Source of the DNA: Dichotomocladium elegans
Lineage: Eukaryota; Mucoromycota; Mucoromycetes; Mucorales; Lichtheimiaceae
Direction of reading: 5' to 3'
Length of the DNA stretch: 64,000 bases
Assembly: GCA_025716815.1 (NCBI GenBank)
Contig: JAIXMN010000012.1
Coordinates: 620,001 to 684,000, forward strand
The notes under the pieces are model-generated. The model searched no databases. It was not told where the DNA came from and was given only the letters and a program-made list of their open reading frames with translations. Shown here one piece after another: positions 1,316-28,099 of this stretch. Position 1 is the first letter of the stretch, and the number at the start of each line of letters is the position of its first letter. Position numbers and translations under genes: made by a program.

Positions 1316-3185
1316 CCAGTCTTTTCCTTTCTAGACAAGAGACTCAACGCAGTATATATTTCTTTTCATCTACCCTCTATTTCGCTTTTCTTTGGTTATA
1401 TTCCCCCCTCATGCCTGAAATTCCATGATGCTACTGCTGCTATACCATTGTACGCTTTACTTCTTTATTAGAAACATCCTGCTTGGAAAAAGACCTTCTC
1501 CAATTATTATATGTGACCCTTGTAGGAAGATGTTGTTGATCATATTATTAAATTGGATATACTTTATCTTACTATCGGTGTGTCTCACATTCCAAAATTT
1601 ATACGGTGCTTTTACTCAAAGTAACGTTGCACCGTTGACGACCGTTGTGATACCACGGCGTTGAATGCGACACTGTTAATTAGAGCCTAACCCGGATGTT
1701 AAAGACGCTCTTCGAATCGGGAGGTGGATGAGGGTTCTTAATCAGGATTAGCTCCAACCTAGACCTTCTTTATGCGCTAGTGAGACATGCTTTCTGCATG
1801 CGCATTGTTATTTTGTCGTTTTCTTGCCATTGCCTTTCAGTTAGTCATACCGAGAATACCGTGTGAAATCCCCGTTGATCTTGACCGCCTCTTCTTGGCA
1901 GAATAAATGCCGCGATCATTCTCCCATGGAAAAAATATCAATCGTCATACCTCATCATTCGATTATTGAAACACAAGCATGTGCTGGTGTCTCTCGTGGA
2001 TGGATACACAGCGTGCAACATTTAAACATGTAACGATGCAGTTCCAGTTGGACTAAGGTGACAGGATATATAGAAAAATTGTATTTAGAAGCAGTATTAT
2101 ATTATTCAACGTCCATTATTTTACAGCGTTGTTGGCTGTCGGGATGTGCGAACTATCTTAAACAAAGCGGATTATTTAAATTCTCGGAAAAAGCGACGTT
2201 GAAGTTCATATTGAACTCAAGAAGTGGACTCCATACGCGCTGAGATATTAGTTTGCGCTACAGAGTAGACTAGGTTGCAGAGGAAAATATATCATTTTGA
2301 TCAAGTAGTATCACATCAAGAAATAGTCATTTATTTAGTCACACTTCAACTCAAGCCCGTAGCACGTCCGTATTTATATAGACCTAGTCTAAACCGTAAA
2401 CTACGAACAAGACAGCATCACAAAAAAAGTTGCTTTCGAATTTAGTGATGCCTGACCTTTCCTAGGCATTTTGCGAAGATGGGCGGAGCACTGTAGCTGA
2501 AGAAGGAGTATATCCTCTTTAAATAATTTGATCCGGCATAAACTACTTGTATAGTAATATATATACCTCGCAGCGGCAGCTCGAGAGACTCTCACTGTAC
2601 AGGTATCCAATGCAGACGCAATCGAAAAATGTTGGCCTAGAGGGAACGCAGTCACACATAGCGTTACCAGCGTCAAGGTCGATGTTTAAGAAGAAGCAGG
2701 GACACCTGCGGTTCAGCGAAGATAGAAGAGGTATACGCATCGGTCCCATATATTTTTGGCTGTGATCATAAAAGATATATATTAGAATGCATTGATCATC
2801 CTAGAAAATGGACTAAAGGATTTCCTCGATGCCTGAGGCCTGCCAGTTCTGAAAGTCGCAGGATCGCAAAAATACAAATCGCATTTTGCGCAGAAACCTT
2901 TACGGGTGACGACAAATCGAATGTCACATGCATACACGGAAAGATGTCGCAAATCCATCCCATCCTTATGACTCTTTCTCTTTATAAACTTTTACATTCT
3001 GAAATGAGCAATCTATTTTTTACGACGATGGCCAAGGTCATGTCGTTGATGAGGAAGTGTATTCACTTCCACCCGTTTGTTCTTACACTGAATATCTGCG
3101 TAGCATATCGTGCAAAGATAACCTGAGCTTACTGCCACAAACATTCCCAAGAAAAGGATCCAGACATTCGGATGAAAGAAGCGGG
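1316..3185. other. Intergenic, no gene recognised
   Basis: About 1.9 kb of AT-rich DNA with only short, unrecognised open frames. No RNA gene or repeat structure was seen. It separates the transporter from the transposon-derived region. Confidence 0.5.
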
Positions 3186-3420
3186 GATCAAGCGCAGTAC
3201 ACAGCGTACACTGACCAAGACAAAGTCAATTTTTTCAAACTGGTGTTGAGGAGGTATTGAGAGCATCCGCTGCAGCAAAACAGCTAGGAATCCATGTTCG
3301 TTCAGCACAGCGATGGGCATTACAGTACGAAAAGGACCCTGACAGCAGTGTCGTGTTTCGTTGTGTTGCAAGAGACTGAGAGAATATGACGAGACTCGTG
3401 GAAGGTTTTTAGTAAATTTT
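3186..3420 (+). pseudogene. Tc1/mariner-like transposase, N-terminal helix-turn-helix remnant
   Basis: In one frame the DNA encodes AYTDQDKVNFFKLV and, after a frameshift near 3245, ASAAAKQLGIHVRSAQRWAL followed by QYEKDPDS. This is the helix-turn-helix start of Tc1/mariner-type transposases common in Mucoromycota. The rest (DDE domain) is missing and stop codons follow at once. The fragment lies about 430 bp upstream of the Fanzor pseudogene in the same orientation. The other copy of this family (26.1-27.0 kb) lies directly beside the second Fanzor. Confidence 0.6.
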
Positions 3421-3846
3421 GAGTACGAAAAGTACACTACACAAGTACCGGATAGATGTCGGATTATTCTTCAGATGGTCTCTTGGAATTACTTCTTGAA
3501 CTTGTTTGGGATCTCGTTGTTGATTTCAGACCGCCCTCGCGTCGATAAAACCTCATAAAGAACCCAGTGGGAAAAAGACTGTGGAGATGGATCTGGAATA
3601 TTACATCATAATAGCTCCATTATTCTCAACAAGCAGTACTCAAAGTAAGAGCAATTATTGCTGACACTATAAATAGTGATGCTCAAGCAAACTGGCCCTT
3701 TCCACTATCCACATATAAAGCTAGAGCCCATACAGCCTACAGAAAATAACACAACACCACATTTACGGTTGAAAGGTAGTACGGCCGCTTTCATACTCGT
3801 CTCTGCGATACTAAGAAATAATATACCCTAGGTCTTCACCCACCAA

Positions 3847-6035
3847 ATGGCCCAACCCCACTGCCCCGTCATCCATGTAGGCATGCGCACTGGCCACAAC
3901 ATTGACCGCACTGGCCGTATAATTGGGGTGAAATCGTCCATACGGGGCATCGGCTGGCAACAGCAGTACTGTGAATATCTGTATCAGTTGGTCGACCTTG
4001 TCCACAGCACCGCAACACAGGCGTACGAGTTCGCCAAATATATTTTCATCAACGAGGCAGCGCAGGATCCAAATTTTAACATCCAGGAAAACATCACGGA
4101 GAAGTTCTTTTCAGAAGTTTGGCTCTCCATGATTACCACAGCCGAACGCCGCACCCAAGGAGAAACTGCCCGCGTCCAAGAACTAATTAATCGCCACAAG
4201 GATGAGTACCTTCGGATATTCGGATACAACAGGCCTGCGTTCTCTTATTCCCAGCAATTTTCTTCTTACGAAGGCACCAAGATTTATACTGCTTACGTGA
4301 ATAATGTCCACATGCGGTTCGGGCAACACCTTCGGTGTGTCATCAATGTCATCCTGAATCTTTGTCAGCGAAAAGCCGACAGCAAGCGGGAGTTAATCGC
4401 ACAGGGTCTAAGCCCCGATCAAGTACGCCGGGACCTTTATGAAACCATCACCCGGCATGCCACAGGATTCAAGCTAGCAATTGCCCGTCGAGGTATATTG
4501 ATGGAAGACATTAATGCCGAGCCTGAGTTTCTTCGGGAAGCATACGATATCCTACAGCCTGTCTTAAATGCTTACCCCCGAAACCGCCAATTCCAACACC
4601 AGAGTATCAATTACGACGCCAAGGCCAATCCCGTTAAGCATTTCGACGCCTTCTTCCAGCTTGCACGTGCTTGTCAACAGAACGAAATACGCGGATTCAA
4701 CTGTTTTCCATTTCGTCGCTCGTGGTCACCATGCTATATGGAGATCGATACGAAAATCCTTTGCTACCATATCCTGGGCTGCAAAATGGAATCCCACACA
4801 AGCAATATGGAGTACTGGAGACGGGTTGTAAACCTGAAATCAAGAGCTTTCAAACCCCAAGAATCCGAGCTGCTCCAATTCCGTGGAACTATTCGCACTG
4901 ACGGCGTCGGTGTTACTGTGTTCAAGGAGACAAATGGCCTTCGATCGGGTTTCAGACAGAGATTTGGCATCCAGAGCGAAGATATCGAGTACGTCAACCC
5001 ATAGATAGTCCGGAACGAATACTATAGAGGACAATGGGTCACCATTGATCCTGGCAGAAGGGACCTGTTGTATTGCGTTCATGAGAACTCTTCACCCGAC
5101 AATCACCAGACCTTCCGATATACAAAGTAGCTTCAAGATCATACACGAAAGACCAAACGATACTGCAGACTCCGAGAACGACTCAAGTTAGAACGACCCG
5201 AGGTTGCGTTAGCTGAGCAGAATCTTATCTCAATTTCAAAGACATACGCTTTCCGTGTACAGCTACGACGGATACCTCGCCGCCAAGAACCAGGTCACTG
5301 TAGTTCTCAAGTCTTTCTACGCGACAACCACTACGTACCACCCGAACCCGCAATTTCTTTTTCGAAAACTTCGCCTGTCAGCATTTTACAAGAAGCAGCA
5401 AGCATATGAAAAGCTTCTCGACTCTCTGAATGTGAAGTTCGGCAATAAGTCCGTTTTCGTGATGGGAAATTGGTCTGCGCCGCATACCAGATATCACAAG
5501 CCTATCCGTGGTGTCGGCTTCCGGCGGCAGTTGAAGAAGAACAATTGCAATATTTATTTAATCGACGAGTACAAGACAACCAAGTGCTGCCCTGTATGTG
5601 ACAATGAAAGCCTTGCTACATTTAGAATGGTTCCTAATCCACGCCCATATCGACGGCCCGACAATCTGCTCATGATCTGCCATGTCCTGCTACGGTATAA
5701 AGGACGGACATGTTGTGTTATATTTCCAAAAGATTCTAATACAGAATTTTGATGTTTCAATAGATGCACAAATCAAAACTGTACAGCAGACATGGCAGAG
5801 GGTATTTGTCAACCAAGGTTATGGAACCGGGGATCTGGCGACGGCTCTCAACATGCATCATATCCTCCGGGGTCTTCGGGAAGATGATATCATACCAGCA
5901 AGGTTTCAGAGAAGAAATGCTGCACAAGCGTCCGCAGCTGGTGGAGGGCCACGGTCACCTGTACCAGAGCAGCGCAGCGTGAGACTACGACGGACAAGGC
6001 CACGAAGGCCACGAGGTGCACGCTCTGGCGGGTAG
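3847..6035 (+). pseudogene. Fanzor (eukaryotic TnpB-like RNA-guided nuclease), nearly complete, inactivated
   Basis: The reading begins at ATG 3847. TATA-like boxes lie at 3668 and 3712. Residues 1-340 form the long N-terminal part with RSWSPCYMEIDTKI and FRGTIRTDGVGVTV (4876-4920), the motif that precedes the nuclease domain. RuvC-I reads TIDPGRRDLLYC (5041-5076). The usual RuvC-II glutamate position reads GNWSAP, and an alternative glutamate is present in LIDEYKTTKCCPVC (about 5560-5600), as known for Fanzors. A 69-nt GT-AG intron (5695-5763) splits the zinc finger; after splicing it reads CHVLLRCTNQNC. RuvC-III reads WNRD-LATALNM, broken by one extra G at 5831. Lesions: in-frame TAG at 5002 and at about 5128, a +1 shift near 5230, and the 5831 insertion. 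With few lesions, decay looks recent. Known family members cut DNA using a guide RNA made from the 3' end of the element; see the adjoining ncRNA. Confidence 0.88.
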
Positions 6036-6059: not shown

Positions 6060-6283
6060 TTTTCCGCGTCAGTTATCGCTGACGCACCCAGGATAACCAT
6101 AGCCCTTCGGGGCAAGGCCCCTTCCTTTGGAAAGACGGTGTGTTGTAAGTTAACGGGATTGGAGAAGGCGTAGTGTTTTCTGCTGACTAACAGGGTTTAA
6201 TCCATGGATGCGAAATCTTTTTACCTATTGATACGACAAATTTATATAATTCTATGCGACATTTATTTTTATGAATTGCCTTT
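6060..6283 (+). ncRNA. Candidate Fanzor guide-RNA (fRNA/omegaRNA) scaffold and element right end, copy 1
   Basis: It starts right after the Fanzor reading frame and resembles a segment at 29.1-29.3 kb. Hairpin 1 at 6066-6085 is GCGTCAG / loop TTATCG / CTGACGC. A UUCG-capped hairpin GCCC-TTCG-GGGC lies at 6102-6113. The heptamer GGATAAC (6091-6097) can pair with the hairpin-1 loop. The stretch 6196-6252 is identical over 57 nt to 29227-29283. Similarity ends near AATTGCCT (6274-6281), taken as the right end of the element; a guide would be read from flanking DNA just beyond. Placement 3' of the nuclease gene fits known Fanzor/TnpB biology. Function is inferred; expression is unproven. Confidence 0.55.
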
Positions 6284-10127: not shown

Positions 10128-10713
10128 TGTCATGACCAAAATGGGAATCAATTTAGGGTCGTGCATTTTCATTCATGCAATGGACACCCTTATTGCATTA
10201 ATTTGCTTCCCGGCCAATTCCCCAATCTATCGACTGCATTTATTAATTTCTAGTCAGTATCTCAACGTCCAAGGCTATCTGAACTCTGGTCCTACACATC
10301 ATAGCTAGTATAAATACTGCCATAGTTTGTCTTAATAAATATCATCAGATTATTGTCACAATTACCAAGAACCACTTACTTGTCCTGGTCAAGCCTCGGT
10401 CCTGTCCTGTAAACCGTTTCTGCTCTTATCCCGAAGTATCTGATCCGTCTTGTCGCGCCTCTCCGGCTCTGCCTTGTTCCTGGTAGTTATCCGACTTGGT
10501 GTATGCTGCGTAATGGAAAGTACCTAACACCCACCCCGTTAGTCTAGCTCTTGACTTGCTTCCTGTTCTCTTCTTGTCTTGTTTTGATCTGCCATCTGGC
10601 ATACTTCTGCATTACCACTATCTTCCAGTTCCTAGCCTGTGCCTTCCTCTTGTCCTCTCCTCTGTCCGAGCGCAAGTCCTGTTACCTAGACTACCCCCAG
10701 TTATATTCTGACA
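10128..10713 (+). repeat. 5' LTR of the Ty3 chromovirus
   Basis: 586 bp, TG...CA ends. It contains a TATA-like TATAAATA near 10309 and AATAAA near 10335, consistent with an LTR promoter and poly(A) signal. It matches 15440-16025. Confidence 0.95.
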
Positions 10714-10760
10714 TCATAATCTGATCACTGGTGTTACCTACTTTCTTGCCCATCCGCAAA

Positions 10761-11681
10761 ATGCCTAAGTTTGGTCAATCTGGAGTTCCGCGAGCTCAAG
10801 ATGACGACAACGAACCACAGCCTGTGGTTGTCAATGCCACTAGTACCGAGGATGTCACCAGTTCCATGTCGCGCCTCCATCTGGATGCGGGAAGTGACAT
10901 TCATGCAGGTACAGGCGAAATCAAAATTTCAGTTCCGACGTTCACTGGTGAGACTACAGAGGTGTCCACGTTTATCGCGAAGGTCAAGCTTGCCATCCGC
11001 TTAAACCCAAAGCGCTACCCAGATCACCTCACAAAAATTTTATTCATGTGCTCAAACATGTCTGGTATCGCGTTCACTTGGGCCGAGCCCTACATCATGG
11101 ATCTGGATGATGAAGAAGTCGACCCCATCATGCTCTCATTCCCCGCTTTCCTCCAAGCTTTCCGCGCCGCTTTTGGAGAGATTAACGAGCTGAAAGACGC
11201 GCAGCACAAATTGCTCACCCTACGTCAAGGATCCAAACCTGCCAGCGAGCACGTTGCGATGTTCCGTCGCTTAGCACTCAAAACAGGCTTCAATGATGTC
11301 GCCTTGCTCGCAATTCTGGAGCTTAGTTGGTCAGACCGTATCAAGGACCAACTCACCACCCGTGACCTCCCCGACGAAATATGGTCATACGCCTCAAAAG
11401 TAATCGAGCTGGATACCCGCGTGCGTGCTCGCGATGGGAAACGCCCGCAACGCCCAGCATACAGGTTTTCCCCTCCTGTCCGGAATCCACACGTTGCCCA
11501 GTCCACACCTCCTGACGTACAGGACATGGAAATCGACACTGCCCCTGCCAAATTCGGACCTCTGACCAAAGAGGAAAAGGATCGACGTCGCAAGCTGAAT
11601 CTCTGTTTATACTGTGGCGGCCAGGGCCACAATGCCGCCTCTTGCCCGAAAAAGGGAAAAGGCAATCCCCAGGGTCTGTAA
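10761..11681 (+). CDS. Ty3 Gag polyprotein
   Basis: 306 residues from ATG 10761; the frame is open from 10731. Residues about 60-220 resemble the retrotransposon gag (capsid) domain: [20 protein letters not shown], then a helical region ending in the [11 protein letters not shown] stretch. A single CCHC zinc knuckle, [14 protein letters not shown], lies near the C-terminus and should bind the element RNA. Gag forms the virus-like particle in the cytoplasm. The 3' end overlaps pol in the -1 frame, with a slip site inside the overlap. Confidence 0.92.
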
Positions 11682-14600
11682 GAGAGTATTCCCTGGGACA
11701 ACGTCATCATAATTTCAATAAACCGATTGTTGAAAACAAACCTCTCTATCCGAGATCCATTTTCTCACCCTCAACTGTCCACGCACTCACGCTACATACC
11801 TCTACACCGAACGAACCACTGAACCTCCCATTGACCCTGCGTTTCGGCAAGAAAGAGGTGGCTGTTAATGCTTTGATCGACTCTGGTGCAATGGAAAGCT
11901 TCATCGATATGGAATTCGCCATTAGCCAAGGAATACCCCTCACTGCCAGCCCTCAGCCATTAAGAGTATACACAGTTGATGGCCGCGCAATCCGGTCGGG
12001 TCTCGTGACAAAAGTATGCCAATTAGAAATGCAAACTGGAGATCATATCGAGAACAGTACACTGCACGCCACCTCGCTGGGCAACTACTCAGTCATTTTG
12101 GGAATGCCATGGCTCACACAACATAACCCCCGCATCGACTGGAAAACACGAAAGATCACCTTGGACTACCAATTATGTCAGGCCGCTTGCCATAGGAACT
12201 CATCAGCGTCCACCTTTCCTATCGCTACCAACAACGTACCACCACCTCCCAGCATCGACATCCGCCTCTGTAATGCTCGTACCCTGAGGAGATACATAAG
12301 AAAAGGGGCACAAGCATTCTGTATGACCCCCGAACAGATTGCAACCTTAGCAAGCATTTCTTCGCACCCCGGTGGTGGAAGTGAAGCCCCTGGGGTACCA
12401 GAGAAGTATCGTGATTTCTTCGACGTCTTTAGCGAAAACGAAGCCAGCTCGCTGCCAATACACCGCCCTGGCACAGACCATACCATCCCCCTCGCAGAAG
12501 GCACCCAACCCCCTTTCGGTCCTATCTACCCACTATCGCAAGATGAGTTGAAGGAACTATCCACATATCTTGAAACCAACCTAAAAAACGGATTCATTCG
12601 TCGCTCTTCCAGCCCTGCAGGCGCGCCAATCATCTTCGTCAAAAAAAAGGACGGCTCACTTCGTCTTTGTGTGGACTACCGTGGGCTAAACAAGATAACT
12701 GTCAAGAATAGATACCCACTCCCTTTGATAAACGAAATGATCGATCGCCTCGCCACGGCACGGATATTCACCAAACTCGATATCCGCAACGCATATCACC
12801 GCATCCGTATTGCAGAAGGTGAGGAATGGAAGACAGCATTCCGGACACGTTATGGCCACTTCGAGTACCAGGTCATGCCTTTTGGATTAACAAACGCCCC
12901 AGCATCCTGGCAATCCCTCATCAACGACGTACTTCGGGATTACCTTGACCAATTCGTCGTCGCATATCTGGATGATATCCTCATCTTCAGCGATAACGAT
13001 AAGGATCATGAGAAACATGTCCATATGGTTCTCCAGAAACTTCGGGATGCTGAGTTATATATCAAGGCCGAAAAATGCGAATTCGACGTACGAGAAGTCG
13101 ACTTCCTGGGTTTCCGCATCAATGACAGTGGCATCTCTATGGACCCTGCAAAAGTCGCCTGCATCCTCGATTGGCCTACCCCACAGTCAGCTCATGACAT
13201 CCAAGTATTCCTGGGATTCGCCAATTTTTATCGTCGGTTCATCAAAGGCTACTCGGGTGTCACCATACCTCTGACAACCCTCCTCAAGAAAGGTGTACCA
13301 TTTGATTGGGGTATAGATCAAGAATCTGCTTTTCGCACGCTCAAAACTGCGTTCACGACTGCCCCAATACTCCACTACTACCAACCCGACCGTAAAATCG
13401 TAGTGGAGACTGATGCATCGGATTCGGCCATTGCTGGAGTCCTCAACCAGGTTGGCGACGATAACAAGCTCCACCCAATTGCCTTCTTTAGCCGAAAGTT
13501 GTCGCCCGCCGAGGTAAACTACGATATATATGATAAGGAACTCCTAGCCATTGTCGAGAGCTTTACGACCTGGCGCCATTACCTTCAAGGCGTAAGGCAT
13601 ACCATTCTGGTGTATACGGATCACAAAAACTTGCAATACTTCATGACGTCACCCGCAAAGTCCCTTACCCGCCGTCATGCCCGATGGGCTATAGTTTTCA
13701 GTGAGTACGACTTCCAGATCACCTATCGTCCAGGTTCGGAAAATCCCAAGGCCGATGCCCTCTCTCGTCGTCGGGACATGGCCTTTGGGGAGGGGGAAAA
13801 CGAGAAGCAACCAATCCGAGGATTATTCCGTGAAGAGCAAATCGTCCTAAGCGCCACATCCTCATCCCGGTTAGGCTTCGCTCTGCTTGAGAAGATCCAA
13901 TCCTCCCTTCTCGAAGATACCTCGTTAAAACAGCTCATACAATTTGTCCGTTCTCCAACCAGCACTCCCCACTACCTCCGCAAGAAAATTCAACGATACA
14001 CCTTCGAAGAGGAAACAAACCTGCTACTTTTTGACAACCGGATTTGTATCCCAGCTAACAACGAGTTGAAGATTGCAATCCTCCATGAACATCACGACAC
14101 ACCTGCCTCAGGTCATCCAGGTAGAGCTAGAACCTGCGAACTCATCGCCCGAACGTTCTACTGGCAAGGTATGCGTAAATTCATAAACCGCTACGTCCAC
14201 AACTGCTCTATCTGCAGAAGGTCGAAGTCCTCCTCTCAAGCACCCCAAGGACTACTCAAGCCACTGCAAATACCCAAGCGCCCATGGGCTGCGATCTCCA
14301 TGGACTTCATCACGGGTTTGCCAACGTCCAACAAGTACAATGCTATCTGGGTTGTGGTCGATCGATTAACAAAAATGGCGCATTTCATCCCTTGTCAGAA
14401 CACCATTACTGCCGAGCAATTAGCGCATCTCTTTATTCATGAGATCTTCCGCCTACATGGTCTACCAGATGAGATCGTGTCGGACCGCGGCTCGATTTTC
14501 ACCTCCAACTTTTGGAGATCAATTCTAGGGTTGCTTCGGATCAAGCCATGCATGTCTACGGCTTTTCATCCTCAGAGTGACGGGCAGACCGAACGCACGA

Positions 14601-15427
14601 ATGCGATCTTAGAACAATATTTGCGAGCATACATAAACTACCAACAAGATGACTGGTCGGAATTTATATCGTTAGCCGAGTTTAGCTACAACAACTCGCA
14701 GCAGAGCTCAACACATCACTCGCCCTTCGAAGCCAATACCGGTTACCATCCTCGTTTCACCACTGCACCTGCTCCTGCGAATTCTAGTCTCTCTCAATCA
14801 TCGGAAGACCTTATCCATGCACTGAAAGAGCTCCACGAAGCGTTGCGTTCCGAAGTCAAGCTAGCACAAAGGGCGCAAGAGGCATCCTATAACGCGGGGC
14901 GTCGTCGCACCCCTGACCACAAGGTCGGCGACTACGTGTACCTATCGAGTCGCCACGTCCGCACAGCTCGACCATCACCAAAGTTAGAGCACAAATACTT
15001 AGGCCCATTCAAGATCACTGCTCGTATTGGTTCACACGCATACCGCCTCCAACTACCAGACTCCATGCGCATTCACCCGGTCTTCCACGTCAGCCTGTTG
15101 TCACCTCGCGATGACCCAGCATTACCAGACATTCCAGGCCGCGCCCAATCTGAACCACCTCCAATCGAAGTTCACGGCGAAGAACATTACGAGGTTGAGC
15201 GTGTACTGGATAGCCGCATATATCGACACAAACTGCAGTATCTTGTAAAATGGAAAGGCTACGAAAACCCAACAGACAATACGTGGGAACCAGCTGAAAA
15301 TCTCTGGAATGCCACCGAGGCAGTCCGTGACTTCCATCTACGTCACCCTACCAAACCGAGAAAAGATTTGCGCATCCAACCTCATAGGTCACAACCTCAT
15401 TGCCGTTCTCGTAGGACTCGAACCTAG
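11642..15427 (+). CDS. Ty3 chromovirus Pol (protease, RT, RNase H, integrase, chromodomain)
   Basis: Open over about 1261 codons without a stop. Order: aspartic protease with [13 protein letters not shown] (about residue 80); reverse transcriptase with YLDDILIFS (442); RNase H with [13 protein letters not shown] (about 590) and [10 protein letters not shown]; integrase with an HHCC zinc domain ([15 protein letters not shown] ... CSICRRSK), then catalytic Asp in MDFITGLP, Asp in [12 protein letters not shown] and Glu in [14 protein letters not shown]. It ends with a C-terminal chromodomain, [20 protein letters not shown] plus [15 protein letters not shown]. The chromodomain marks a chromovirus and in this family directs integration to modified histones. 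There is no start codon at the head of the frame; translation is expected by -1 frameshift from gag. Confidence 0.95.
11654..11660 (+). promoter_or_regulatory. Putative -1 ribosomal frameshift slip site GGGAAAA
   Basis: In the gag frame the bases read G GGA AAA, the X XXY YYZ pattern for simultaneous -1 slippage. The site lies inside the 40-nt gag-pol overlap (11642-11681). Pol is in the -1 frame and has no ATG near its start, so frameshifting is the likely way to make Gag-Pol. The downstream stimulatory structure was not resolved. Confidence 0.65.
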
Positions 15428-15439
15428 AAGGGGAGCTAC

Positions 15440-16025
15440 TGTCATGACCAAAATGGGAATCAATTTAGGGTCGTGCATTTTCATTCATGCAATGGACACC
15501 CTTATTGCATTAATTTGCTTCCCGGCCAATTCCCCAATCTATCGACTGCATTTATTAATTTCTAGTCAGTATCTCAACGTCCAAGGCTATCTGAACTCTG
15601 GTCCTACACATCATAGCTAGTATAAATACTGCCATAGTTTGTCTTAATAAATATCATCAGATTATTGTCACAATTACCAAGAACCACTTACTTGTCCTGG
15701 TCAAGCCTCGGTCCTGTCCTGTAAACCGTTTCTGCTCTTATCCCGAAGTATCTGATCCGTCTTGTCGCGCCTCTCCGGCTCTGCCTTGTTCCTGGTAGTT
15801 ATCCGACTTGGTGTATGCTGCGTAATGGAAAGTACCTAACACCCACCCCGTTAGTCTAGCTCTTGACTTGCTTCCTGTTCTCTTCTTGTCTTGTTTTGAT
15901 CTGCCATCTGGCATACTTCTGCATTACCACTATCTTCCAGTTCCTAGCCTGTGCCTTCCTCTTGTCCTCTCCTCTGTCCGAGCGCAAGTCCTGTTACCTA
16001 GACTACCCCCAGTTATATTCTGACA
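15440..16025 (+). repeat. 3' LTR of the Ty3 chromovirus
   Basis: 586 bp, same sequence as 10128-10713 by eye, followed by the ATGAT target duplication. Confidence 0.95.
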
Positions 16026-17719: not shown

Positions 17720-17782
17720 AATCTGTCGCAGCCTCAACCCGGTAATCCCTTTTGCCGAACTGCGCCTCACCTTACTTACCCA

Positions 17783-18074
17783 TGTCGTGCGTATATTTTG
17801 GCGGTTACACCGTAGCCAATAGCAACGACCAAGCGTAACCGTAGAAGAAGAAGGGTAACGGATAGATGATGTTTATTGCATGGCACTACTTGGATATTTA
17901 TACTGGTTTTGCTATCTAATAATAATCATGGAGAAGTGGGATAAAAGGGAAATAGAAGTGGGCTGTGCGTCTGATGCGAGGACTACTGTCATTCGTGCAC
18001 TTGTCGAAGAGGACTATGAAAAGCGATAAAAATAGAGAGCACCGTTGATTGGTCAAGCAATCTGTGCTACGACA
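17783..18074 (-). repeat. 3' LTR of the nested element
   Basis: 292 bp, same as 22322-22613. Minus-strand TATAAATA and AATAAA boxes agree with the pol orientation. The pol stop codon lies inside it (18067). Confidence 0.9.
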
Positions 18075-21000
18075 ATATCCCCTCCCCAGAATGTTGTTCG
18101 TCCTCGAACAAGAGAGACAGTTGGGAGCGAGCGACAGCGGCGGCTTCGAGGTGGCGGCGTTCGGCTGCGCGAGCGGCAGTTGGGTCGTACCATGGATCGG
18201 TTGGTGTGGCGTTGTTTCGTACAAAAATGGGGCGGAGGCGGTCAGTGTGCACCCAAGAATTGTAGATTTTGCCGTTCATGTCCTGAAGCTGGTAGATGTC
18301 AGTGCTAGGGTTGGTCTTAATTACGCGGAATGGACCTTTCCAGTTGTACTCCAGTCCAAACTTGTTCTCGTGGCGCATAAGGACATGGTCCCCCACAGAA
18401 AAAACTTGCGGTGTTAAAGCAGCATCCCATCGGGCCTTATCTTGTGCAGCACTGGCGCGGACACGCGTCTCGGCAGAAATTCGTTCATCGCGTAACTTGA
18501 GAAGGGCTTGCACGCGAGACTTTGATGCATCCGCTTCGGTAAGTTCGGTGGCTTCCTTGTCGATGGTGATATATGGTCGAAGGTGATCACCTGGAAGCTT
18601 TGGTTCTTGGCCATAGACGAGGAAGAATGGGCTGAATCCGGTGGTGCGATGTCTGCGTACTCGGCATGCGAAAAGAGCGGGTTCCACAAAGTCGTCCCAT
18701 CGGTGAATCCGGCCATTTACATACTTACGTATCATTTGTTTGAGAATGCCGTTCGTACGTTCGGCCTTTCCGTTTGTGCGTGGGTGAAAAGCTGAAGTGA
18801 AAACATGTCGTAGCTTGATGCGGCCAGTATAGCTGGCAAGGACGTTTGACATAAAGTTTGCACCTCGGTCAGTAACGATCTCGTCTGGGCAGCCAAAACG
18901 TAGGACAATTTCTTCGTATAAGAACTTAGCAATGGCCTCTCCGGTGGCGTCAGGTACAGAGCGAGCAATGGGCCAATTTGTTGCAGAGTCTACCGCGACT
19001 AAGATCCATCGATTTCCATTTGCTGTTGTAGGCAATTCGCCGATAAAGTCGAGGTGCCAGCGGGAAAATGCAGGTGGGACGTCCAAGGGCTTCATTGGTG
19101 CATGGTGAATATGTCTGTCGGCATTTGCAGCCAGCTGGCATTGTGTACAGGTAGCGAGCCAATTAGCGATGTCAGTCCTCATATCCGGCCACCACCATCG
19201 TTTCCGCATCAAATCGTATACATTTGCATTCCCGGAGTGACCGAATGATTCGTGGAATTGTTGGACAAGGTCGGCGCGTCGAGCGAAAAGCACATAGCGG
19301 ATTTCTTGGGTTTCTTTACCTGTCTTGACTTTGCGATAGACGCAATTGTCCCGTACAACAAAACGATCTCTATGCTTGCTCAAAAGGTCGCGATATGATG
19401 CAGGCCAGTCGTTTTCTGGCTTGGCATAAAATTTGGGCCAGTCGGTTTCTTGCAAGGATCGTACAGCATAAAGATAGTCAGGTTCCATCGTGTCCTTAGC
19501 TGGGGTGGATGAAATCCCATCGCGGCGAGATAGCAGGTCAGGAACTCGATTTTCTGCGCCAGGCTTGTACCGGATATCAGGGTCATACAACTCAATCTCG
19601 GCGATCCACCGGGTTAAACGGGGAGGTCGGTTATTTTGTTCGCGAAAGTACTTGAGCGGTAGATGGTCTGAATAAACAGTGAACCGCCGGCCATCGATGA
19701 AGCATCGCCACGTGCGCAAGGCGTGCAGGATACCCAGCAACTCTCTTTCTTGAGCAGGGTAGTTGCGTTCTGCCTCCGATAACTTTTTGGACTCAAATGC
19801 AACGGGGTGCATTAGCCCATCCTCCCCTTCTTGAAGCAAGACGGCGCCCACGCCGTAATCAGAAGCATCCGTTTCAATGACAAAAGGCAGGTCCGGGTTG
19901 GGAGGAAGCAGGATCGGAGCAGCAATCATGCGGGCTTTGATTTCGTCGAAAGCAGACTGACACTCGGGCGTCCAATCAATGGCTCGTTGTTTTACTCCCA
20001 TTCCTTTTGTCAGGTCCGTCAACGGTGCAGCAATGGCAGCAAAGTCTCGAATAAAACGCCGGTAATACGAACCCAGACCAACGAATTGCCGTACCTCTTG
20101 AACATTCTTTGGGATTGGCCAGTCTTGAATGGCCTTGACCTTAGAGTTTGACGGAAGAATACCACGCGCCGTAACATGGTATCCAACGAACTCAAGCTCA
20201 GTCTTGTTGAACTCGCATTTCTTGATGTTGGCAACGAGTTTTGCAGATCGAAGACGGTCCAAGATTTGTCGGACATGCGTACGGTGTTCTTCGGCAGTCT
20301 TGCTGTAGATGAGAATGTCGTCGAGGTAAACCAAGGCAAAGTCGTCCAAATATTCGCCCAGCACCGCATTCATCAGATTTTGAAACGTCGGTGGCGCATT
20401 CGTCAAGCCAAAGGGCAGCACCAAAAATTCGTATGAACCGTATCGTGTATTGAACGCGGTTTTAGGGACATCGTCGTCGTGGATCCTAACTTGATGATAA
20501 CCGCTTTTTAAGTCGATGCTCGAAAAGAATTTAGCACCACCTAGGCGTTCGAGGCACTCATCAATGCGAGGAAGAGGATGGTTGTTACGGCGTGTAACGC
20601 GGTTGATGGCGCGGTAATCAACACACATGCGCATCTCGCCGTTCTTCTTTCGCACAAATAACACAGGCGCACCCCAAGGCGACGACGTTGGTCGGATTAG
20701 GCCTAGGTCTAAGAGCTCTTTAAGCTGCTTGCGCAGCTCGTCCAGCTCACGTGGGCTCATCTTGAATGGTGGTCGGCTAATGGGTGCAGAATCTCCTGTA
20801 TCGATTACATGGGTTACCTCTCGCCTTGGTGGCAGTCCGGGGAGCTTGTCCTGAAAGACATCTGGATATTCAGTCAGCATACTTTTGAAATGCTCATCCA
20901 TCACCCCGTCAGATTCGACGTCCTCCAGACGAATATAGCACAGGAATATCGACTGGAGACGTTTATCACGCTCAAAGCGCTCAAGTTGGCGATTCGATAT

Positions 21001-21459
21001 TAAGAAAGCAAGGTCAGGAATCTGGCGATTGAACTTGGGTCGTAGGATATGAGTTGCGTCCCCGTGAGTAATGCGCCATTGGTCGAGGTCCCAATCCGGC
21101 ATAGGCTTCATCCGTTTGATCCAGTCGCGGCCAAGGATCAAATCGAATTTCGTGTCAAGGACATATGCGGGAACAGGATGGGTGAGCCCGTCAATACAGA
21201 CATTGAGAATGACTTTCTCCGTGATACTAAGTGTGTGACCTCCAGCAGTTTCAACTGAGCGCCCCATGACACGTGTTCGAGGTAAGCCAGGTATCAGCCT
21301 GGGCGATACATAGGTGGCTGATGCACCACTATCGAGTAATGCTTCGCATTGGCGTTCGTTGCAGGTTATATCTTCATCCCCGTATCCATCTCCACTCGTA
21401 GTTTCGAATTGCGTGGCAACGCTGATGGGCATTGAAACAAGGAGGGAGGAATGGTTCAC
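18067..21459 (-). CDS. Pol polyprotein of the nested Ty3 element (intact)
   Basis: Open frame of about 1130 codons. Order: protease with CEALLDSGASATYVS (about residue 40); reverse transcriptase with LVYLDDILIYS; RNase H with ETDASDYGVGAVLLQ and YSDHLPLKYF; integrase with zinc domain (HESFGHSGNANVYDLM ... CTQCQ) and catalytic Asp in WHLDFIGELP, Asp in TDRGANFMSN and Glu in TNGKAERTNGILKQ. No chromodomain is seen; the C-terminus is a short tail after HTDRLRPIF. The frame has no clear ATG at its head (GTG at the first listed Met), so it is probably made as a fusion with the upstream frame. No lesion was noticed. Confidence 0.92.
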   Translation of the reverse strand: MNHSSLLVSMPISVATQFETTSGDGYGDEDITCNERQCEALLDSGASATYVSPRLIPGLPRTRVMGRSVETAGGHTLSITEKVILNVCIDGLTHPVPAYVLDTKFDLILGRDWIKRMKPMPDWDLDQWRITHGDATHILRPKFNRQIPDLAFLISNRQLERFERDKRLQSIFLCYIRLEDVESDGVMDEHFKSMLTEYPDVFQDKLPGLPPRREVTHVIDTGDSAPISRPPFKMSPRELDELRKQLKELLDLGLIRPTSSPWGAPVLFVRKKNGEMRMCVDYRAINRVTRRNNHPLPRIDECLERLGGAKFFSSIDLKSGYHQVRIHDDDVPKTAFNTRYGSYEFLVLPFGLTNAPPTFQNLMNAVLGEYLDDFALVYLDDILIYSKTAEEHRTHVRQILDRLRSAKLVANIKKCEFNKTELEFVGYHVTARGILPSNSKVKAIQDWPIPKNVQEVRQFVGLGSYYRRFIRDFAAIAAPLTDLTKGMGVKQRAIDWTPECQSAFDEIKARMIAAPILLPPNPDLPFVIETDASDYGVGAVLLQEGEDGLMHPVAFESKKLSEAERNYPAQERELLGILHALRTWRCFIDGRRFTVYSDHLPLKYFREQNNRPPRLTRWIAEIELYDPDIRYKPGAENRVPDLLSRRDGISSTPAKDTMEPDYLYAVRSLQETDWPKFYAKPENDWPASYRDLLSKHRDRFVVRDNCVYRKVKTGKETQEIRYVLFARRADLVQQFHESFGHSGNANVYDLMRKRWWWPDMRTDIANWLATCTQCQLAANADRHIHHAPMKPLDVPPAFSRWHLDFIGELPTTANGNRWILVAVDSATNWPIARSVPDATGEAIAKFLYEEIVLRFGCPDEIVTDRGANFMSNVLASYTGRIKLRHVFTSAFHPRTNGKAERTNGILKQMIRKYVNGRIHRWDDFVEPALFACRVRRHRTTGFSPFFLVYGQEPKLPGDHLRPYITIDKEATELTEADASKSRVQALLKLRDERISAETRVRASAAQDKARWDAALTPQVFSVGDHVLMRHENKFGLEYNWKGPFRVIKTNPSTDIYQLQDMNGKIYNSWVHTDRLRPIFVRNNATPTDPWYDPTAARAAERRHLEAAAVARSQLSLLFEDEQHSGEGILS

Positions 21460-21697
21460 ACGACGTTAGCCGAGAGTCTTTCTCTTTTGCACAGAAATCA
21501 GGTGCAGCTGTCGTGGTACAGACCAGAGTACCACGAAGGCCAGGGACTCTGGTGGTACACACCCATATTATATATTGTCGGTTCGGGTCGTACTGAGCGG
21601 CACTCCGCCGCATAATATATCTAGACGGTCAGTTGCGTGTGCGTTGTCACTACTTTGAGTTTCATTCGTTCGTATAGAAGGCTCTGCATTGTGTGTC

Positions 21698-22310
21698 TTA
21701 TTTTGGCGGGCTAATTTCTGCATAGAGATGCAAGCCTGAGACAAAGAAAGCGAGCGCATCGGAGGAGGAGGAGGAACAATATAGCGGTAGGTCTGTGCCA
21801 GTGGCGGTGTTTAATTCTTCGAAGTGCTGTATGTCGTCACTGAGTTGTCCGTCATATATATCTGCAATAAATTCGGACGTGTCAACATCGATCAAATCAC
21901 CTGTTAAAGGTTCGTGATAGTCGTGTCGATGTTGGCTGTTGTCTTGTGCTGGATGCGGTTGCAACATATCGTCATCTTTCTGGTAACTGTGTGGTATATG
22001 TTGCATTGTTCTCTTGTAACTATTTCGTGTCTCGTGCTGCCGCGGTCTCCAAATCGGTCGAAAACGGTATTCGTTTGGCAAAATCGGTAACATGCAATCT
22101 CGGGCAAAATGGTGTTCGTTTCCCACAATTGTAACAGCGCAAGGTTCGCTCGGAAGCACAACTATAATCATCATGACCGTAGCCACCGCAATTTAAGCAT
22201 CGTAGCGTTCTTTCAGAGGCACAGTCTTGTTTGTCGTGGCCATGCCCACCGCAGTTCGAGCACTGGTCTTCATAGGGCTCCGGGTCATCTATCGGGGAAT
22301 CGAATTTCAT
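21698..22310 (-). CDS. Gag-like zinc-knuckle region of the nested element, capsid absent
   Basis: The first frame after the 5' LTR (22310-22020) carries CSNCGGHGHDKQDC and CLNCGGYGHDDYSC, two good CCHC knuckles, and a third broken one (CYNCGKRTPFC). A second frame (22186-21698) continues with an acidic, serine-rich tail. The ATG at 22310 follows the presumed primer site almost at once, leaving no room for the capsid domain normally upstream of the knuckles. Either the capsid part was deleted or the element depends on Gag from another copy. Confidence 0.55.
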
Positions 22311-22321
22311 CAGCTACCAAT

Positions 22322-22613
22322 TGTCGTGCGTATATTTTGGCGGTTACACCGTAGCCAATAGCAACGACCAAGCGTAACCGTAGAAGAAGAAGGGTAACGG
22401 ATAGATGATGTTTATTGCATGGCACTACTTGGATATTTATACTGGTTTTGCTATCTAATAATAATCATGGAGAAGTGGGATAAAAGGGAAATAGAAGTGG
22501 GCTGTGCGTCTGATGCGAGGACTACTGTCATTCGTGCACTTGTCGAAGAGGACTATGAAAAGCGATAAAAATAGAGAGCACCGTTGATTGGTCAAGCAAT
22601 CTGTGCTACGACA
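22322..22613 (-). repeat. 5' LTR of the nested element
   Basis: 292 bp, matches 17783-18074. The flanking CCCATTCCCACGC resumes the outer LTR. Confidence 0.9.
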
Positions 22614-22950: not shown

Positions 22951-25066
22951 TACAGGAGGTCCGCCAATTTATTGGCCTGGGTTCCCATTACCGACGGTTC
23001 ATTCGAGGATTTGCAGGTCTCGCGGCACCATTGACTGACCTAACGAAAGGCACAGGAACGAAGACACGCCCTATTAACTGGACCTCGGAATGTCAAACAG
23101 CTTTCGAGGAAATCAAGTCACGCATGATCGCTGCCCCTGTTCTGCAACATCCTAATCCGGACCAACCCTTCGTGATCGAGACGGACGCTTCCGACTATGG
23201 TGTTGGTGGCGTGCTACTGCAAGCGGGGGAGAAGGACGGCTTGATGCATCCAATCGCTTTCACGTCGAAGAAGCTATCGCGAGAAGAGCGCAACTACCCA
23301 GCGCAAGAAAGGGAACTTTTGGCCATTTTGCATGCACTCCGCACGTGGCGTTGTTTTGTAGAAGGACGATCATGCACAGTGTATACGGACCACAAACCAT
23401 TAGAATACTACAAGACACAAGCCAGACCGACAACGCGCCTGACACGGTGGATCCAAGAATTTGCGTTATATGACCCTTGCATCGTCTACAAACCGGGTAA
23501 ACTCAATCATGTACCTGATCTCCTATCGCGGCGCGATGGTGCAAATTGCACGCCCGCAGAATCAAGCATGGAACCAGATTACCTGTATGCGGTGAAGGCG
23601 GTGCACGACTCCGATTGGCCCAAGTTTTATGCCAGACCTGAACCCGAATGGCCAGCAATCCTTAAAGATCAGCTGCTCAAGCATCGCGACCAATTTGTAG
23701 TACGAGGTGGCTCGGTGTTTCGTAAGGTGAAGATAGGTGATACAACTGAAGAGCGTCGATATGTCATGTTTGCTCGTCGAGCCGATTTGGTACAGGATTT
23801 TCACAAGTCGGTGGGTCATGCAAGCAAACTTACAGTACAGGATTTGATGTGCAAACGGTGGTGGTGGCCTCAAATGCGTCAAGACATTGAAGATTGGTTG
23901 GCAGGTTGTCCGGAATGTCAGTTAGCAGCACGACCCGACCGCAACACACATCATGCGCCTATGCGTCCCTTGGATATTCCTCAGCCTTTCTCACGATGGC
24001 ATCTGGACTTTGTAGGCGAACTCCCAACAACGGCGCATGGTAATAGGTGGCTACTAGTCGCCGTAGATTATACAACCAACTGGTGTTGTGCACGTGCCGT
24101 ACCGGAGGCAACAGGAGAGGTTATTGCCAAATTCATTTACGAAGAGCTAGTACTCCCATTCGGATGCATGAACGAAATTCTCACCGATCGAGGCGCCAAT
24201 TTCATGTCCAACGTTCTGGCGAACTATCTTGGGCGCCTCAAGGTCAAACATTTATTCACGTCCGCATTCCATCCACGAACCAATTCAAAAGCTGAACGCA
24301 CCAACGGTATCCTCAAGCAGATGATCCGCAAATATGTACATGGCAAAATTCATCGTTGGGATGACTTTATTCCACTGGCTGTTTTTGCATGTCGTGTTCG
24401 AAAACACCGCACGACGGGTTACAGCCCCTATTTCCTCGTTTATGGCCAAGAACCCAATCTGCCTGGCGATGATCTACCACCCTTTTTATTCGCGGACGCC
24501 GATGATCCTGTCAAGGATAAAGGACTGCCGTCCAGGGCCGTATACCAGAAGTCCGCGCATTACACCGTGCTCGTGCCATTGCGGAACAACGCCTTCGCGA
24601 CAATGCTGCGAAAGACAAAGCCCGTTGGGATGCGGTCATGAAACCTCAGGTTTTTAATGTTGGCGATTATGTTTTGATGCGACATGAAAACAAGCTGAGC
24701 CTGGAATATACATGGAAGGGGCCCTATCGAATTATCAACACAAACACCACGTCTCATATATATCAAGTCCAAGACCTTAAGGGCTCTCTCTACAAGTCAT
24801 GGGTACACACCGATCGCCTTCGCCCCGTCCATTTCACATCCTCCCCAACTGATCCGTGGTATGACCCCACTACTGCTCGTGCTGCTGAAAGACGTCACCT
24901 TGAGGCTATCGCACAATTGCATGTTCTCGAGGACGAACAACATTCTGGAGGGGGGGTATTGTCGCAGCCTCAACCCGGTAATCCTTTTGCCGAACTGCGC
25001 CTCACCTTACTTACCCATTCCCACGCAAATCTGCTACACCGCCACACTGCCAAGACATTGCTTTGA
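22951..25066 (+). pseudogene. Truncated pol (end of RT, RNase H, integrase) of the outer element
   Basis: It begins within the RT-RNase H connection (VRQFIGLGSHYRRFIRGFA). RNase H is present (ETDASDYGVGGVLLQ, YTDHKPLEYY). The integrase has HASKLTVQDLMCKRWW, CPECQ, WHLDFVGELPTT, TDRGANFMSN and KAERTNGILKQMIR. A frameshift near 24530 separates this from the C-terminal piece (VFNVGDYVLMRHENK ... SWVHTDRLRP). The YLDD reverse transcriptase core is absent, so the copy cannot move by itself. Sequence is close to the nested element's pol, so both belong to related families. Confidence 0.88.
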
Positions 25067-26089: not shown

Positions 26090-26978
26090 ATTAGATATGA
26101 CGTTTATTCATACAAGAAGAGCCCTGACAGCATCTTTAAGAAACCTAACACGGGGCACCGTTCGCGTATTCTCAATGAAGAGCATAAACGCATTCTTTTA
26201 GAATGCGTTAATGAAGACCCATCCATTGTTCTAGAGTAGCTGGTCCAACGATTTGAGGGTTTCAAAGCATCTAAAACGACGCTCCATCGATTTATGAAAA
26301 CGTATGCAACTTGTCATTAAAAATGGCTCGGTTTCAGCCTATAGACAGGAATAATGCTGCGAAGATCCAAGAGCGCCTTGACTGAGTATGCAGATGGGAT
26401 AGGACCGACATCGACTTCAAAAGCTGCGTTTTTTCTTTGATGAGTCTGGATTCCATATTAACATGAAATGCAGCATGGTGTGGTCCAAGAAATGGACCCC
26501 TGCAGTGGTTACAGTACCAAAGGCAGCCACAATCGTGGGAGCAATCTCAGCATCAGGCATCATTCAATGTAGCTTGAGACTCCCGCAGCCACCAATCAAG
26601 AAAAGAAGAAGGCAGGTCAATCTGAAGTTGCGAGCAGAGGAACTGCAACTGAACATCATCTCAGCTTCCTTAAGGCAACAATGGACGAGATGGATAAGTA
26701 TGAACATATGAAGGGCCATTGGTTGGTAATGGATAATGCACCTATCCATACGGCTTAGGATATCTCTGAATACATCGAGTCTCGGGGATATCGATATGCT
26801 TATCTTCCACCATACTCGCCTGAACTCAATTCTATTGAGCAGTTTTGGTCAGTGGTCAAGGGCAAAGTTAAATGCAATAGGTTCTTGGAAAGCGAGACGT
26901 TGATAACATAGATCTGCGAGGCATCCAACAGCTTAAAGCTGAGCGATTTCGAAGGTTTCGTTTCTCATTCTCATATGT
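26090..26978 (+). pseudogene. Tc1/mariner-like DD34E transposase, inactivated
   Basis: Fragments in shifting frames: KKPNTGHRSRILNEEHKRIL (start of the linker), FFDESGFHINMK (first catalytic Asp), LVMDNAPIHTA (second Asp) and YSPELNSIEQFWSVVKGKVK (Glu). Exactly 34 positions lie between the second Asp and the Glu, i.e. DD34E. It ends with LSDFEGFVSHSH. Several stop codons (for example at about 26237 and 26757) and frameshifts make it dead. The N-terminal helix-turn-helix is missing here but is the part preserved at 3.2-3.4 kb. It lies tail to tail with, and directly against, the second Fanzor. Confidence 0.8.
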
Positions 26979-26984
26979 GCTTAG

Positions 26985-28099
26985 TTAACTGCCGTAATTG
27001 GAACAACTGTGATCCGACTGCTCCTCCAGCTTCGGAGCTGCTCCGGTTCTTGGGAGTACATCCCTGTCCCTTCTCTTCTTGATAATGGAGACTCCTACGC
27101 CATCCGTTTCAAGTGTACCGCGAAATCGAAGTACTCCATTCTCTGAAGACTTGAGAGCTTTCGAATAGAAATCGATGACCTCATCCCATCCGCCAGGATA
27201 AGGAAATTTTTTGGTCCATGAGCGACCCAGAATGTTTTGCCATATGATTTTTGCGTCAATCCTTATGTATGACGGAGACCATGACCGACGAAGAGGGAAA
27301 CAGGCAAATGCAGGCAGCTGAAGTCGCTCAAAAAGGAGAGCGAGCTGGTAAAAGGCTGCCATATGTTGGATTGGATGAGCCTTTGCATCGTAGTAGATGC
27401 TATCGTTGTCAAAGGCGTGGGTACTGGTGTAGGCATCGAAAATTGGCCGGATGGCGTCGAAAGCTTCCTGAAGATAAGCTGGGTCGTCGGGACGTCGTCT
27501 CTGGATACGTTTCGACCAGCTACAATCTGCTTAAATGTTGTTGCGGGTGTAATGATTGTCTCTCGGATGCGTTGACTGATTTGTGTCGGGTCCAGACCTT
27601 GGCCAATCAGCTGCTCTTCAAACTCCTCTTTCCGCATTTGAATGTTATTGGTGTAAGCAGCAAAGATCTTGGCGCCTTCGTAATTTGCACATTGCTGGGA
27701 GTATGGAAAGGATGGTCGTTCATAATTTGTATATAAGAGGTATGGCGTCGAGTATTCATCAATCAGATTCCGGTATCGAGTCGTTTCCTCGCCACAGCCA
27801 CGTTGTTTGTAATCGATCAATGCGAGCCAGACTTCAGCAAAGAATCTTTCGCTGATAAAAGCCCTGATGTCAAAATTTTCATTGGCTTGGAACTCGTGGA
27901 GAAAAATGTATTTTGATAGTGCGTATGCATGCATTGTCGTTATATTCACAAGTTCGACCAAATGGTTCAACTTTTCGTGGTACTCTTGTCTCCAGCCTAT
28001 GCTGTCAATGGATGCTTTCACAACCATGGTACGATCGCGGGTTTCGGGTCGATGAACGTTCATACTTGGAAGGATTGTTTTAGTATGGTAGGTTGTCAA
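26985..28099 (-). pseudogene. Second Fanzor copy, truncated before the RuvC domain
   Basis: The minus-strand frame from 28099 aligns with the N-terminal half of the first Fanzor: IGWRQEYHEKLNHLVELVN, RFFAEVWLALI, FPYSQQCANYEGAKIFAAYT. It lacks about 20 residues after NNIQM that the first copy has. A single frameshift near 27485 moves the reading to the frame with FPLRRSWSPSYIRIDAKI and LRFRGTLETDGVGVSI. It stops at 26985 within the variable linker, so all RuvC motifs, the zinc finger and any 3' guide RNA are gone; the mariner-like remnant starts there. Divergence from the first copy is large, so these are separate lineages or old copies. Confidence 0.85.

Follow-up and report, generated by a model that had tools for sequence, protein, structure and literature searches.

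A segment present twice in the window, by which we mean the whole 64,000-nt stretch of Dichotomocladium elegans DNA analysed here, looks like the scaffold of a Fanzor omega-RNA, as judged from its covarying first hairpin (SL1), its linkage to Fanzor genes and its position at the 3' end of transposons. The hairpin is very probably SL1 of a Fanzor1 omega-RNA, and we propose that the segment would be the right-end module of TA-inserting Tc1/mariner elements which carry, or derive from carriers of, a Fanzor1 near Fanzor 1 of Parasitella parasitica (PpFz1). We observed SL1 covariation, Fanzor linkage, the element ends and motifs common to several families directly. The guide is likely to come from the flank of the element. 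More tentatively, at somewhat less than an even chance, the host spliceosome would make the guide RNA: the transposon's last AG would serve as the 3' splice site, the flank of each insertion would become the guide, and the TA would complete the last stem.

Covariation of the SL1 hairpin

An earlier note on this DNA had described a 7-bp hairpin in both copies of the segment, and its description is accurate. Copy 1, of family A, reads GCGTCAG-TTATCG-CTGACGC at 6066-6085 (+), and copy 2, of family B, reads GTCCCGG-TTATCG-CCGGGAC at 29119-29138 (+), each with 7/7 pairs round the loop UUAUCG; both were placed by the sequence, by a pattern scan and by covariation. The pattern GTTATCGN{4,12}CCAGGATAAC matched 129 times in the 39.4-Mb genome and not once in the reversed control, which is more than chance. 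The SL1 stems of three families are unrelated in sequence, yet all are 7 bp long round a UUAYCG loop; the row from family E pairs in only 5/7. A 7-bp SL1 is common to all three solved Fz1 omega-RNAs (PMC11423790).

The compensatory change that the note had claimed for the stem extends well beyond the two window copies. Among 16 distinct SL1 sequences, double-change cells numbered 33 against 11.3 in shuffled alignments (0/500 shuffles as high), with shuffles that keep the relatedness among the 16 sequences. Pairing held in 95.5% of cells against 68.9 when shuffled, and the covariation score was 0.826 against 0.291; sliding the partner by 1-3 columns lowered pairing to 31-53% and the score to 0.056-0.176. 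Pairs changed on both sides, at 6 versus 5.1, were not above shuffles (reached by 140/500), and the number of further pair types was reached by 16/500. The scan had yielded 17 distinct rows, from which L053, a reading of the wrong strand, was dropped. It missed the fetched pieces L094, L096, L098, L101, L102, L103 and L105; by eye, no SL1 was visible in L102 or L105, and L103 is cut inside SL1.

Two further candidate structures were rejected. A pseudoknot between the SL1 loop (UUAUC) and a downstream GAUA(A) is possible in families A, B, D and E; family C, with the loop UUACC, has no partner, and the pseudoknot was thus not taken as general. A second 7-bp hairpin in family B (ACCCAGG/CCTGGGT), met while running the C model on the window, is without a counterpart in A and was not adopted as SL1. 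That covariance model was built from seven C-type rows and searched against the window only. The Rfam scan of the window at gathering thresholds returned only a tRNA, at 16644.

The 57-nt block and the scaffold core

Downstream of the hairpin, the identity of 57 out of 57 bases reported earlier was recovered as the longest exact block common to the two copies, 6196-6252 (+) and 29227-29283 (+); a repeat finder gave 95% identity over 93 nt (6176-6268 and 29207-29299). The exact block occurred in 12/105 fetched loci, some of them fetched twice, so that the perfect identity is partly peculiar to the two window copies. Moreover, the length and the sequence of the region that holds the block differ from family to family, and the block is not supported as the scaffold core. 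The scaffold reading itself stands on SL1 covariation, Fanzor linkage and the position at the transposon 3' end, with a core that is probably SL1 plus SL2, about 40-80 nt.

In copy 1, SL1 is followed by the 5' arm UAACCAUA at 6094-6101 (+), the proposed SL2 partner of the exon end plus TA, which is absent from the minimum-energy fold of this copy, and by a GCCC-UUCG-GGGC hairpin at 6102-6113 (+; sequence and RNAfold). Copy 2 has the 5' arm UAACUC at 29148-29153 (+), which pairs with GAGU·UA in the spliced model (the dot marks the predicted junction), as indicated by the fold and by the junction-pairing analysis, and a GGGUCC-UUCG-GGGCCC hairpin at 29156-29171 (+; sequence and fold).

Linkage of the module to Fanzor1 genes

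Upstream of copy 1 lie two broken pieces of a Fanzor1 gene, with an open frame of 390 codons. The first, at 3847-5004 (+), covers REC-WED and the start of RuvC and has a premature stop in the window copy; the second, at 5255-5752 (+) in another frame, covers the C-terminal RuvC/TNB part. The nearest solved relative is PpFz1 (PDB 9cf0, E 5e-67 for the first piece and 2.8e-28 for the second), and Fanzor1 homology over REC-WED and RuvC-TNB was also found with PDB 8gkh (E 1.6e-11 and 6.6e-13); the second piece additionally gave a weak PF07282 match below the cut-off. SL1 of copy 1 starts 313 nt past the last Fanzor stop. Across the genome we counted 113 Fanzor matches from 107 scored of 581 candidates, which are lower bounds, and 16 of the 113 are open for 639 codons without stops, so the Fanzor family is not simply dead. 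RuvC-I and TNB landmarks were present in one frame in 20/28 readings of A loci. A genome scan with PF07282 gave three matches, one just at the cut-off, and was of no use for counting Fanzors.

The earlier note had named a lack of further copies beside Fanzor genes as what would speak against it, and such copies were found. For the linkage analysis, the 100 listed of the 129 SL1 matches were sorted by eye into 52 A-type, 45 B-type and 3 other motifs, and all 96 C-type motifs were added. A same-strand Fanzor lies upstream of 45/52 listed A-type motifs, and an opposite-strand match accompanies one. Measured from the end of the match to the Fanzor query P0001, 36 of these 45 motifs lie at 1,016-1,113 nt, 15 of them at exactly 1,070 nt. 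At least 9/96 C-type motifs, as counted from the scored matches, have a same-strand Fanzor upstream, eight at 1,068-1,101 nt and one at 1,433 nt; these Fanzors are 43-56%, mostly 50-52%, identical to P0001. That two Fanzor families, at about 51% identity, show nearly the same distance would be hard to explain unless Fanzor and module form a functional unit.

One C-type motif has an opposite-strand Fanzor 2,092 nt away, and for the remaining 86 the scored matches include none. These 86 may correspond to the 'ghost' scaffolds described from Spizellomyces (PMC10432273). Of the B-type motifs listed, 0/45 had a same-strand Fanzor and 4/45 an opposite-strand one among the scored matches.

Carrier elements, their termini and the target site

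A search with the copy 1 segment gave 307 first-look candidates, of which 40/40 scored matched; copy 2 gave 393, with 41 matches from 40 scored; and family C, met beside a B copy, gave 289, with 40 matches of 72-100% identity from 40 scored. Thirty loci were fetched; upstream of the segment, the other 29 all align to L001, and for 24 the alignment spans the whole 1.5 kb. Family A elements consist of a transposase-side remnant, Fanzor and module, on one strand throughout. The 5' part of the window A element lies at 2839-3547 (+), in three pieces that match the A copy L093 at 90-95% and are homologous to the transposase-side left part of family B.

The layout of family B is a transposase remnant (+), a Fanzor fragment (-) and the module (+). 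In the window, a DDE_3 (Tc1/mariner-type) transposase remnant lies at 26106-27076 (+), with a 98% match to L091; PF13358 was recognised in 26681-27076 with stops read as X (E 4.8e-19), and no match was found in the three frames of 26321-26682. The N-terminal Fanzor1 fragment at 27075-28087 (-), located by tblastn with P0001 (39% and 44% identity, E 4.8e-73), runs opposite to the module. The earlier note had described the segment as lying just 3' of the Fanzor frame, which does not extend to copy 2: its module lies 3' of the transposase remnant, and the Fanzor remnant is on the minus strand. DDE_3 also lies directly upstream of the C module in L092 (PF13358, E 4.6e-17).

Several other features accompany the B element. 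A 157-nt stretch upstream of its Fanzor fragment (28242-28396) is 90% like the region upstream of the A Fanzor in the L093/L006 element, in the same orientation to Fanzor, so that B apparently contains a Fanzor gene in inverted orientation together with its own 5' region. A 65-nt repeat (28565-28629 and 28698-28762, 88% identical) lies in the element upstream of SL1 and is seen in other B copies too. Copy 2 recurs on contig C76 at 61577-61842, with 99.97% identity over 3.2 kb; since the flanks are included, C76 probably represents either the same locus in an alternative copy or a segmental duplication. The window further contains LTR retrotransposons at 10128-16025 and 17783-22613. The near identity of their LTRs (586 bp, 10128-10713 and 15440-16025, 100%; 299 bp, near 17777 and 22315, 99%) marks them as recent insertions. 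Reverse transcriptase, RNase H and integrase domains are found in the frame 18067-21459 (-), and the same domains without the reverse transcriptase in the frame 23031-24641 (+).

The right end of the A element in the window is truncated at 6258-6270 (+). Its terminal GAAAATAAAGTA is absent by sequence and by alignment to other copies, and likeness to those copies stops at about 6264-6272. With the right terminus lost, the normal guide that the earlier note had expected beyond 6283 is impossible for copy 1. Copy 2 does not extend to about 29345, as had been thought: the right terminus TTTATTTTTGAAAATAAAG occupies 29315-29333 (+), its terminal AG being the candidate 3' splice site, and is followed by TA at 29334-29335 (+), which we read as the target-site duplication and predict to form the last two scaffold nucleotides. 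The usual right end is GAAAATAAAG, then TA; the exact TTTTGAAAATAAAGTA has 242 occurrences in the genome and none in the reversed control. The sequence of the left ends is TACAC..TTTTTCAAAATCAAAGTCGCAC, and the two ends form imperfect inverted repeats (TAC..TTTTCAAAA..GTCG). TA adjoins both ends in 4/4 elements for which both were read. DDE_3, terminal inverted repeats and TA duplication together fit TA-inserting Tc1/mariner elements as the carriers.

All five left ends read (L009, L041, L081, L092 and L093) show TATACAC, which leaves two ways of placing the duplication. Should the duplicate be the TA that adjoins CAC, it has an A in front of it, and the empty site would read ATA ahead of the predicted guide, in agreement with the ATN target-adjacent motif (TAM) of PpFz1 (PMC11423790). 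If the element begins with TACAC, 3/5 would read TTA, with no fit to ATN. The base after the target TA is T in 26/28 A, A in 18/27 B and C in 5/7 C and other copies, a difference that may reflect either a target preference or a piece of the element end. One locus, L105, ends in TTTTTGAAAATAAAGTA with no SL1, splice-like or branch motif visible, so the terminal repeat occurs also without the scaffold.

Intron-like signals between the scaffold and the element end

All five families, A-E, carry GTAAGY (aligned as TAAGY) and then TTTTCTGYTGACTAAC between scaffold and element end, with exceptions among single copies, and the element ends, after an AG-poor stretch, in AAAG followed by TA. The arrangement is reminiscent of a spliceosomal intron of the U2 type. 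Candidate 5' splice sites in the window are GTAAGT at 6145-6150 (+) and at 29178-29183 (+). Cross-family alignment places a candidate pyrimidine tract plus branch site, TTTTCTGCTGACTAAC, at 6176-6191 (+), and a candidate branch site, TTTTTCTGTTGACTAAC, at 29206-29222 (+); its core TTCTGTTGACTAAC, to which the counts refer, occurs 190 times in the genome and once in the control. We scanned for copies with one of five 5'-site hexamers, TGAYTAA and a near-intact GAAAATAA end, and for such copies the 5' site was GTAAGT in 28/29 A and 27/27 B copies, the remaining A copy having GTAAGC. Departures elsewhere were ATAAGT (L092, L094, L099 and L102) and GTATGT (L098); no 5' site was found in L101, and family D reads GGTGACTAAA. 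The first intron base of C-type motifs is an intact G in 82/96 and not G in 14/96; the nine with a same-strand Fanzor all keep the G of GTAAG.

Internal AG after the branch motif was absent from 29/29 A, 24/27 B and 6/7 other copies scanned, and GA was present; these counts start from the fourth base past the branch motif and stop short of the terminal AG. An AG stands directly after CTAAC in A and B, which is excluded from these counts and included in the shuffle test; a splicing model would have to skip it. As a general rule, an AG too near the branch site is skipped. AG depletion per sequence gave shuffle P values of 0.011-0.12, and 0.051-0.62 without the 25-nt terminal repeat, below 0.05 in 0/9 sequences. 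In L094 and L095, both outside the scan, an AG falls among the last 12 nt.

The distance from branch motif to terminal AG is 51-136 nt in 34 pairs, a part of the listed matches. These pairs were drawn from 100 listed right ends (of 242) and 39 branch motifs (190 in the genome, 100 of them listed), with 10/96 C-type sites; motifs and sites were picked for nearness to a listed right end. This distance is longer than expected for a fungus. Similar signals seem to be present in the window's first gene (GTACGT ... CACTAAC ... CAG). The linker from scaffold to element end differs in length even between near-identical copies. A stem between GTAAGTY and TYGACTAAC was considered and set aside; we saw no double compensation between the two motifs, so the sequence, not a helix, seems to be kept. 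An intron ending at the AG beside CTAAC was likewise set aside, being possible in A and B, but not in C, which reads CTAACGG.

Discussion

In the mechanism that we propose, the SL1-SL2 part would be the omega-RNA scaffold. The spliceosome would cut the transcript from GTAAGT (6145 in copy 1, 29178 in copy 2), by way of the branch site TGACTAAC, to the last AG of the element, removing the terminal-repeat region including the 57-nt block and fusing SL1-SL2 to UA plus the flank, with UA closing SL2. The guide would be the host DNA just past the target-site TA, for copy 2 predicted at 29336-29355 (+), an assumed length set beside the 14-15-nt guide of SpuFz1 from Spizellomyces punctatus (PMC10432273). 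The idea that copy 2 takes its guide from DNA past the element would hold as to the source, but the guide should start at or after the TA at 29334-29335 and may be spliced on. The loaded Fanzor would cut the empty site, favouring re-copying of the element. Transcription, splicing, guide use and cutting are all predictions from sequence. Joining of the guide by splicing comes close to an even chance without reaching it, and the whole chain, from an SL1-SL2 omega-RNA spliced to a target-site TA plus flank guide to cutting of the empty site, falls short of even, its probability being slightly lowered by the ambiguous TAM fit and the weak shifted-junction control.

The pairing expected in the spliced form bears on this proposal. 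In five families, pairing is possible between the exon end plus UA and a UA arm that starts 8-10 nt past SL1. Spliced type C would consist of SL1, a 9-nt linker and a 4-bp SL2, UACC-UUCG-GG·UA, which forms in folds of L095, L100 and the D copy. SL2 was absent from the folds of the window A copy, L006 and L097. Spliced B would pair UAACUC with GAGU·UA over 6 bp, and spliced E UACGCCC with GGGUUG·UA with one bulge. Random tails paired as well in 1.3% of cases for A, 19.0% for B, 60% for C, 74.5% for D (3-nt tails in C and D) and 2.6% for E when one defect was allowed, and in 25.5%, 4.2%, 16.3%, 18.4% and 33.2%, respectively, under strict pairing. Several shifted 5' sites gave a junction helix as long or longer, and in an energy scan of 81 shifted junctions the predicted one ranked 1 and 2 in two B copies and 14-50 in five others. 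Junction pairing in these models is supported by B; the other families are consistent with it, without being compelling. Target-site duplication nucleotides within the terminal scaffold stem have also been predicted for other Fanzor1s (PMC10711439).

A nearly equal rival, to which we give a slightly lower but still appreciable probability, is a contiguous omega-RNA as in SpuFz1. No splicing would take place, and the scaffold would extend from SL1 over about 120-260 nt to the end of the element, the RNA passing through AAATAAAG into the flank. The terminal repeat would then be the last hairpin, UUUAUUUU-UG-AAAAUAAA, beside TA, with the guide read straight on, and GTAAGTY would pair with TYGACTAAC in a third stem. 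Folding predicts this terminal hairpin for A, B, D and 3/5 C copies, with pair probabilities that vary, but not for E. The RNA of SpuFz1 passes through the right inverted repeat and takes in a further 14-15 nt (PMC10432273), the Fanzor1 reRNAs of insect viruses reach about 15 nt past the target-site duplication, and terminal inverted repeat and duplication are predicted parts of other Fanzor1 reRNAs (PMC10711439); moreover, the region past SL1 may be unconstrained, according to Xu et al. (PMC11423790). On the other hand, a contiguous RNA leaves the AG-poor stretch and the common motifs unexplained and has to accommodate a linker that varies widely in length within and between families, and PpFz1, the nearest solved relative, has only SL1, SL2 and then the guide. 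We keep this explanation near-equal to splicing because of the long branch-to-AG distance, the weak AG depletion, the terminal hairpin of the unspliced form and the terminal repeats and duplications in other reRNAs.

The remaining explanations are far less probable. We consider it improbable that another kind of 3' processing accounts for the guide, with AATAAA in the terminal GAAAATAAAGTA acting as a poly(A) signal and an RNA end 10-30 nt into the flank setting the guide length, alone or together with splicing. AATAAA is present at the right end, and the left end read outward ends in ATGGTG in A, without AATAAA; yet the terminal repeat is already constrained by the transposase, and the spacing of 10-30 nt from poly(A) signal to RNA end is a general rule, the RNA 3' ends here being putative. 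Still less credit goes to a mere transposon end with transposase-binding repeats and no guide RNA, the hairpin being a DNA or mRNA feature: the segment adjoins terminal repeats, the first-look candidates are many (307, 393 and 289, with 40 scored each), and L105 carries the same end without a visible scaffold, but this leaves aside the RNA-level covariation, the 7-bp SL1 as in the solved Fz1s and the similar spacing to two Fanzor families. Least credible is a fixed internal guide, in which a PpFz1-like scaffold would stop at SL2 and the next element sequence, GUAAGUURAAG..., common to B and C, would be a constant guide as the guide of PpFz1 begins right after SL2 (PMC11423790), because Fanzor guides described in the cited literature come from outside the element and the sequence in question makes a good 5' splice site with a branch-like motif behind it.

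Compared with known systems, the spliced model most resembles PpFz1, which has SL1, a 4-bp SL2 and a guide segment C50-C58 (PDB 9cf0-9cf3; PMC11423790). The likeness lies in the 7-bp SL1, in the 4-bp SL2 of the spliced C-type model, and in the TAM, ATN, with which ATA ahead of the guide agrees if the duplicate is the TA adjoining CAC. It differs in that the window Fanzor seems about 100 aa short at the FRI insertion of PpFz1, as estimated from the spacing of the matched parts, and in that RNA splicing goes unmentioned in the available text on PpFz1. With SpuFz1, the module shares a scaffold between Fanzor stop and right end, a flank-derived guide and many scaffold copies without Fanzor (ghost loci). 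The SpuFz1 scaffold, however, is 75 nt and reaches into the right inverted repeat (PMC10432273), whereas in families A and B about 217-262 nt separate the start of SL1 from the element end, and the intron-like signals fall within that span. Like the Fanzor1-bearing Tc1/mariner elements of Bao and Jurka (2013), ours combine a mariner-type DDE transposase, Fanzor1 and TA duplication; in contrast, the available part of that paper leaves an RNA module undescribed, while a right-end module common to several families is present here, and the family B Fanzor fragment is inverted (PMC3627910).

Bacterial IStrons offer a precedent for a transposon-encoded RNA that unites splicing with a TnpB-type element, by means of a self-splicing group I intron. 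Our proposal differs in invoking host spliceosomal removal of the right terminal part only. Among the papers listed by searches of the open-licence part of PubMed Central, we recognised none on spliced Fanzor guides. If splicing is true, it would be a new route to a guide RNA, and would explain how a terminal repeat constrained by the transposase can stand between scaffold and guide and yet be absent from the RNA; it would perhaps also explain the shortness of the solved PpFz1 scaffold. The firm part alone provides a covarying scaffold family in a fungal genome with open Fanzor frames, and, since these open frames coexist with many scaffolds that have no Fanzor among the scored matches, guide function in D. 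elegans becomes open to genome-wide study.
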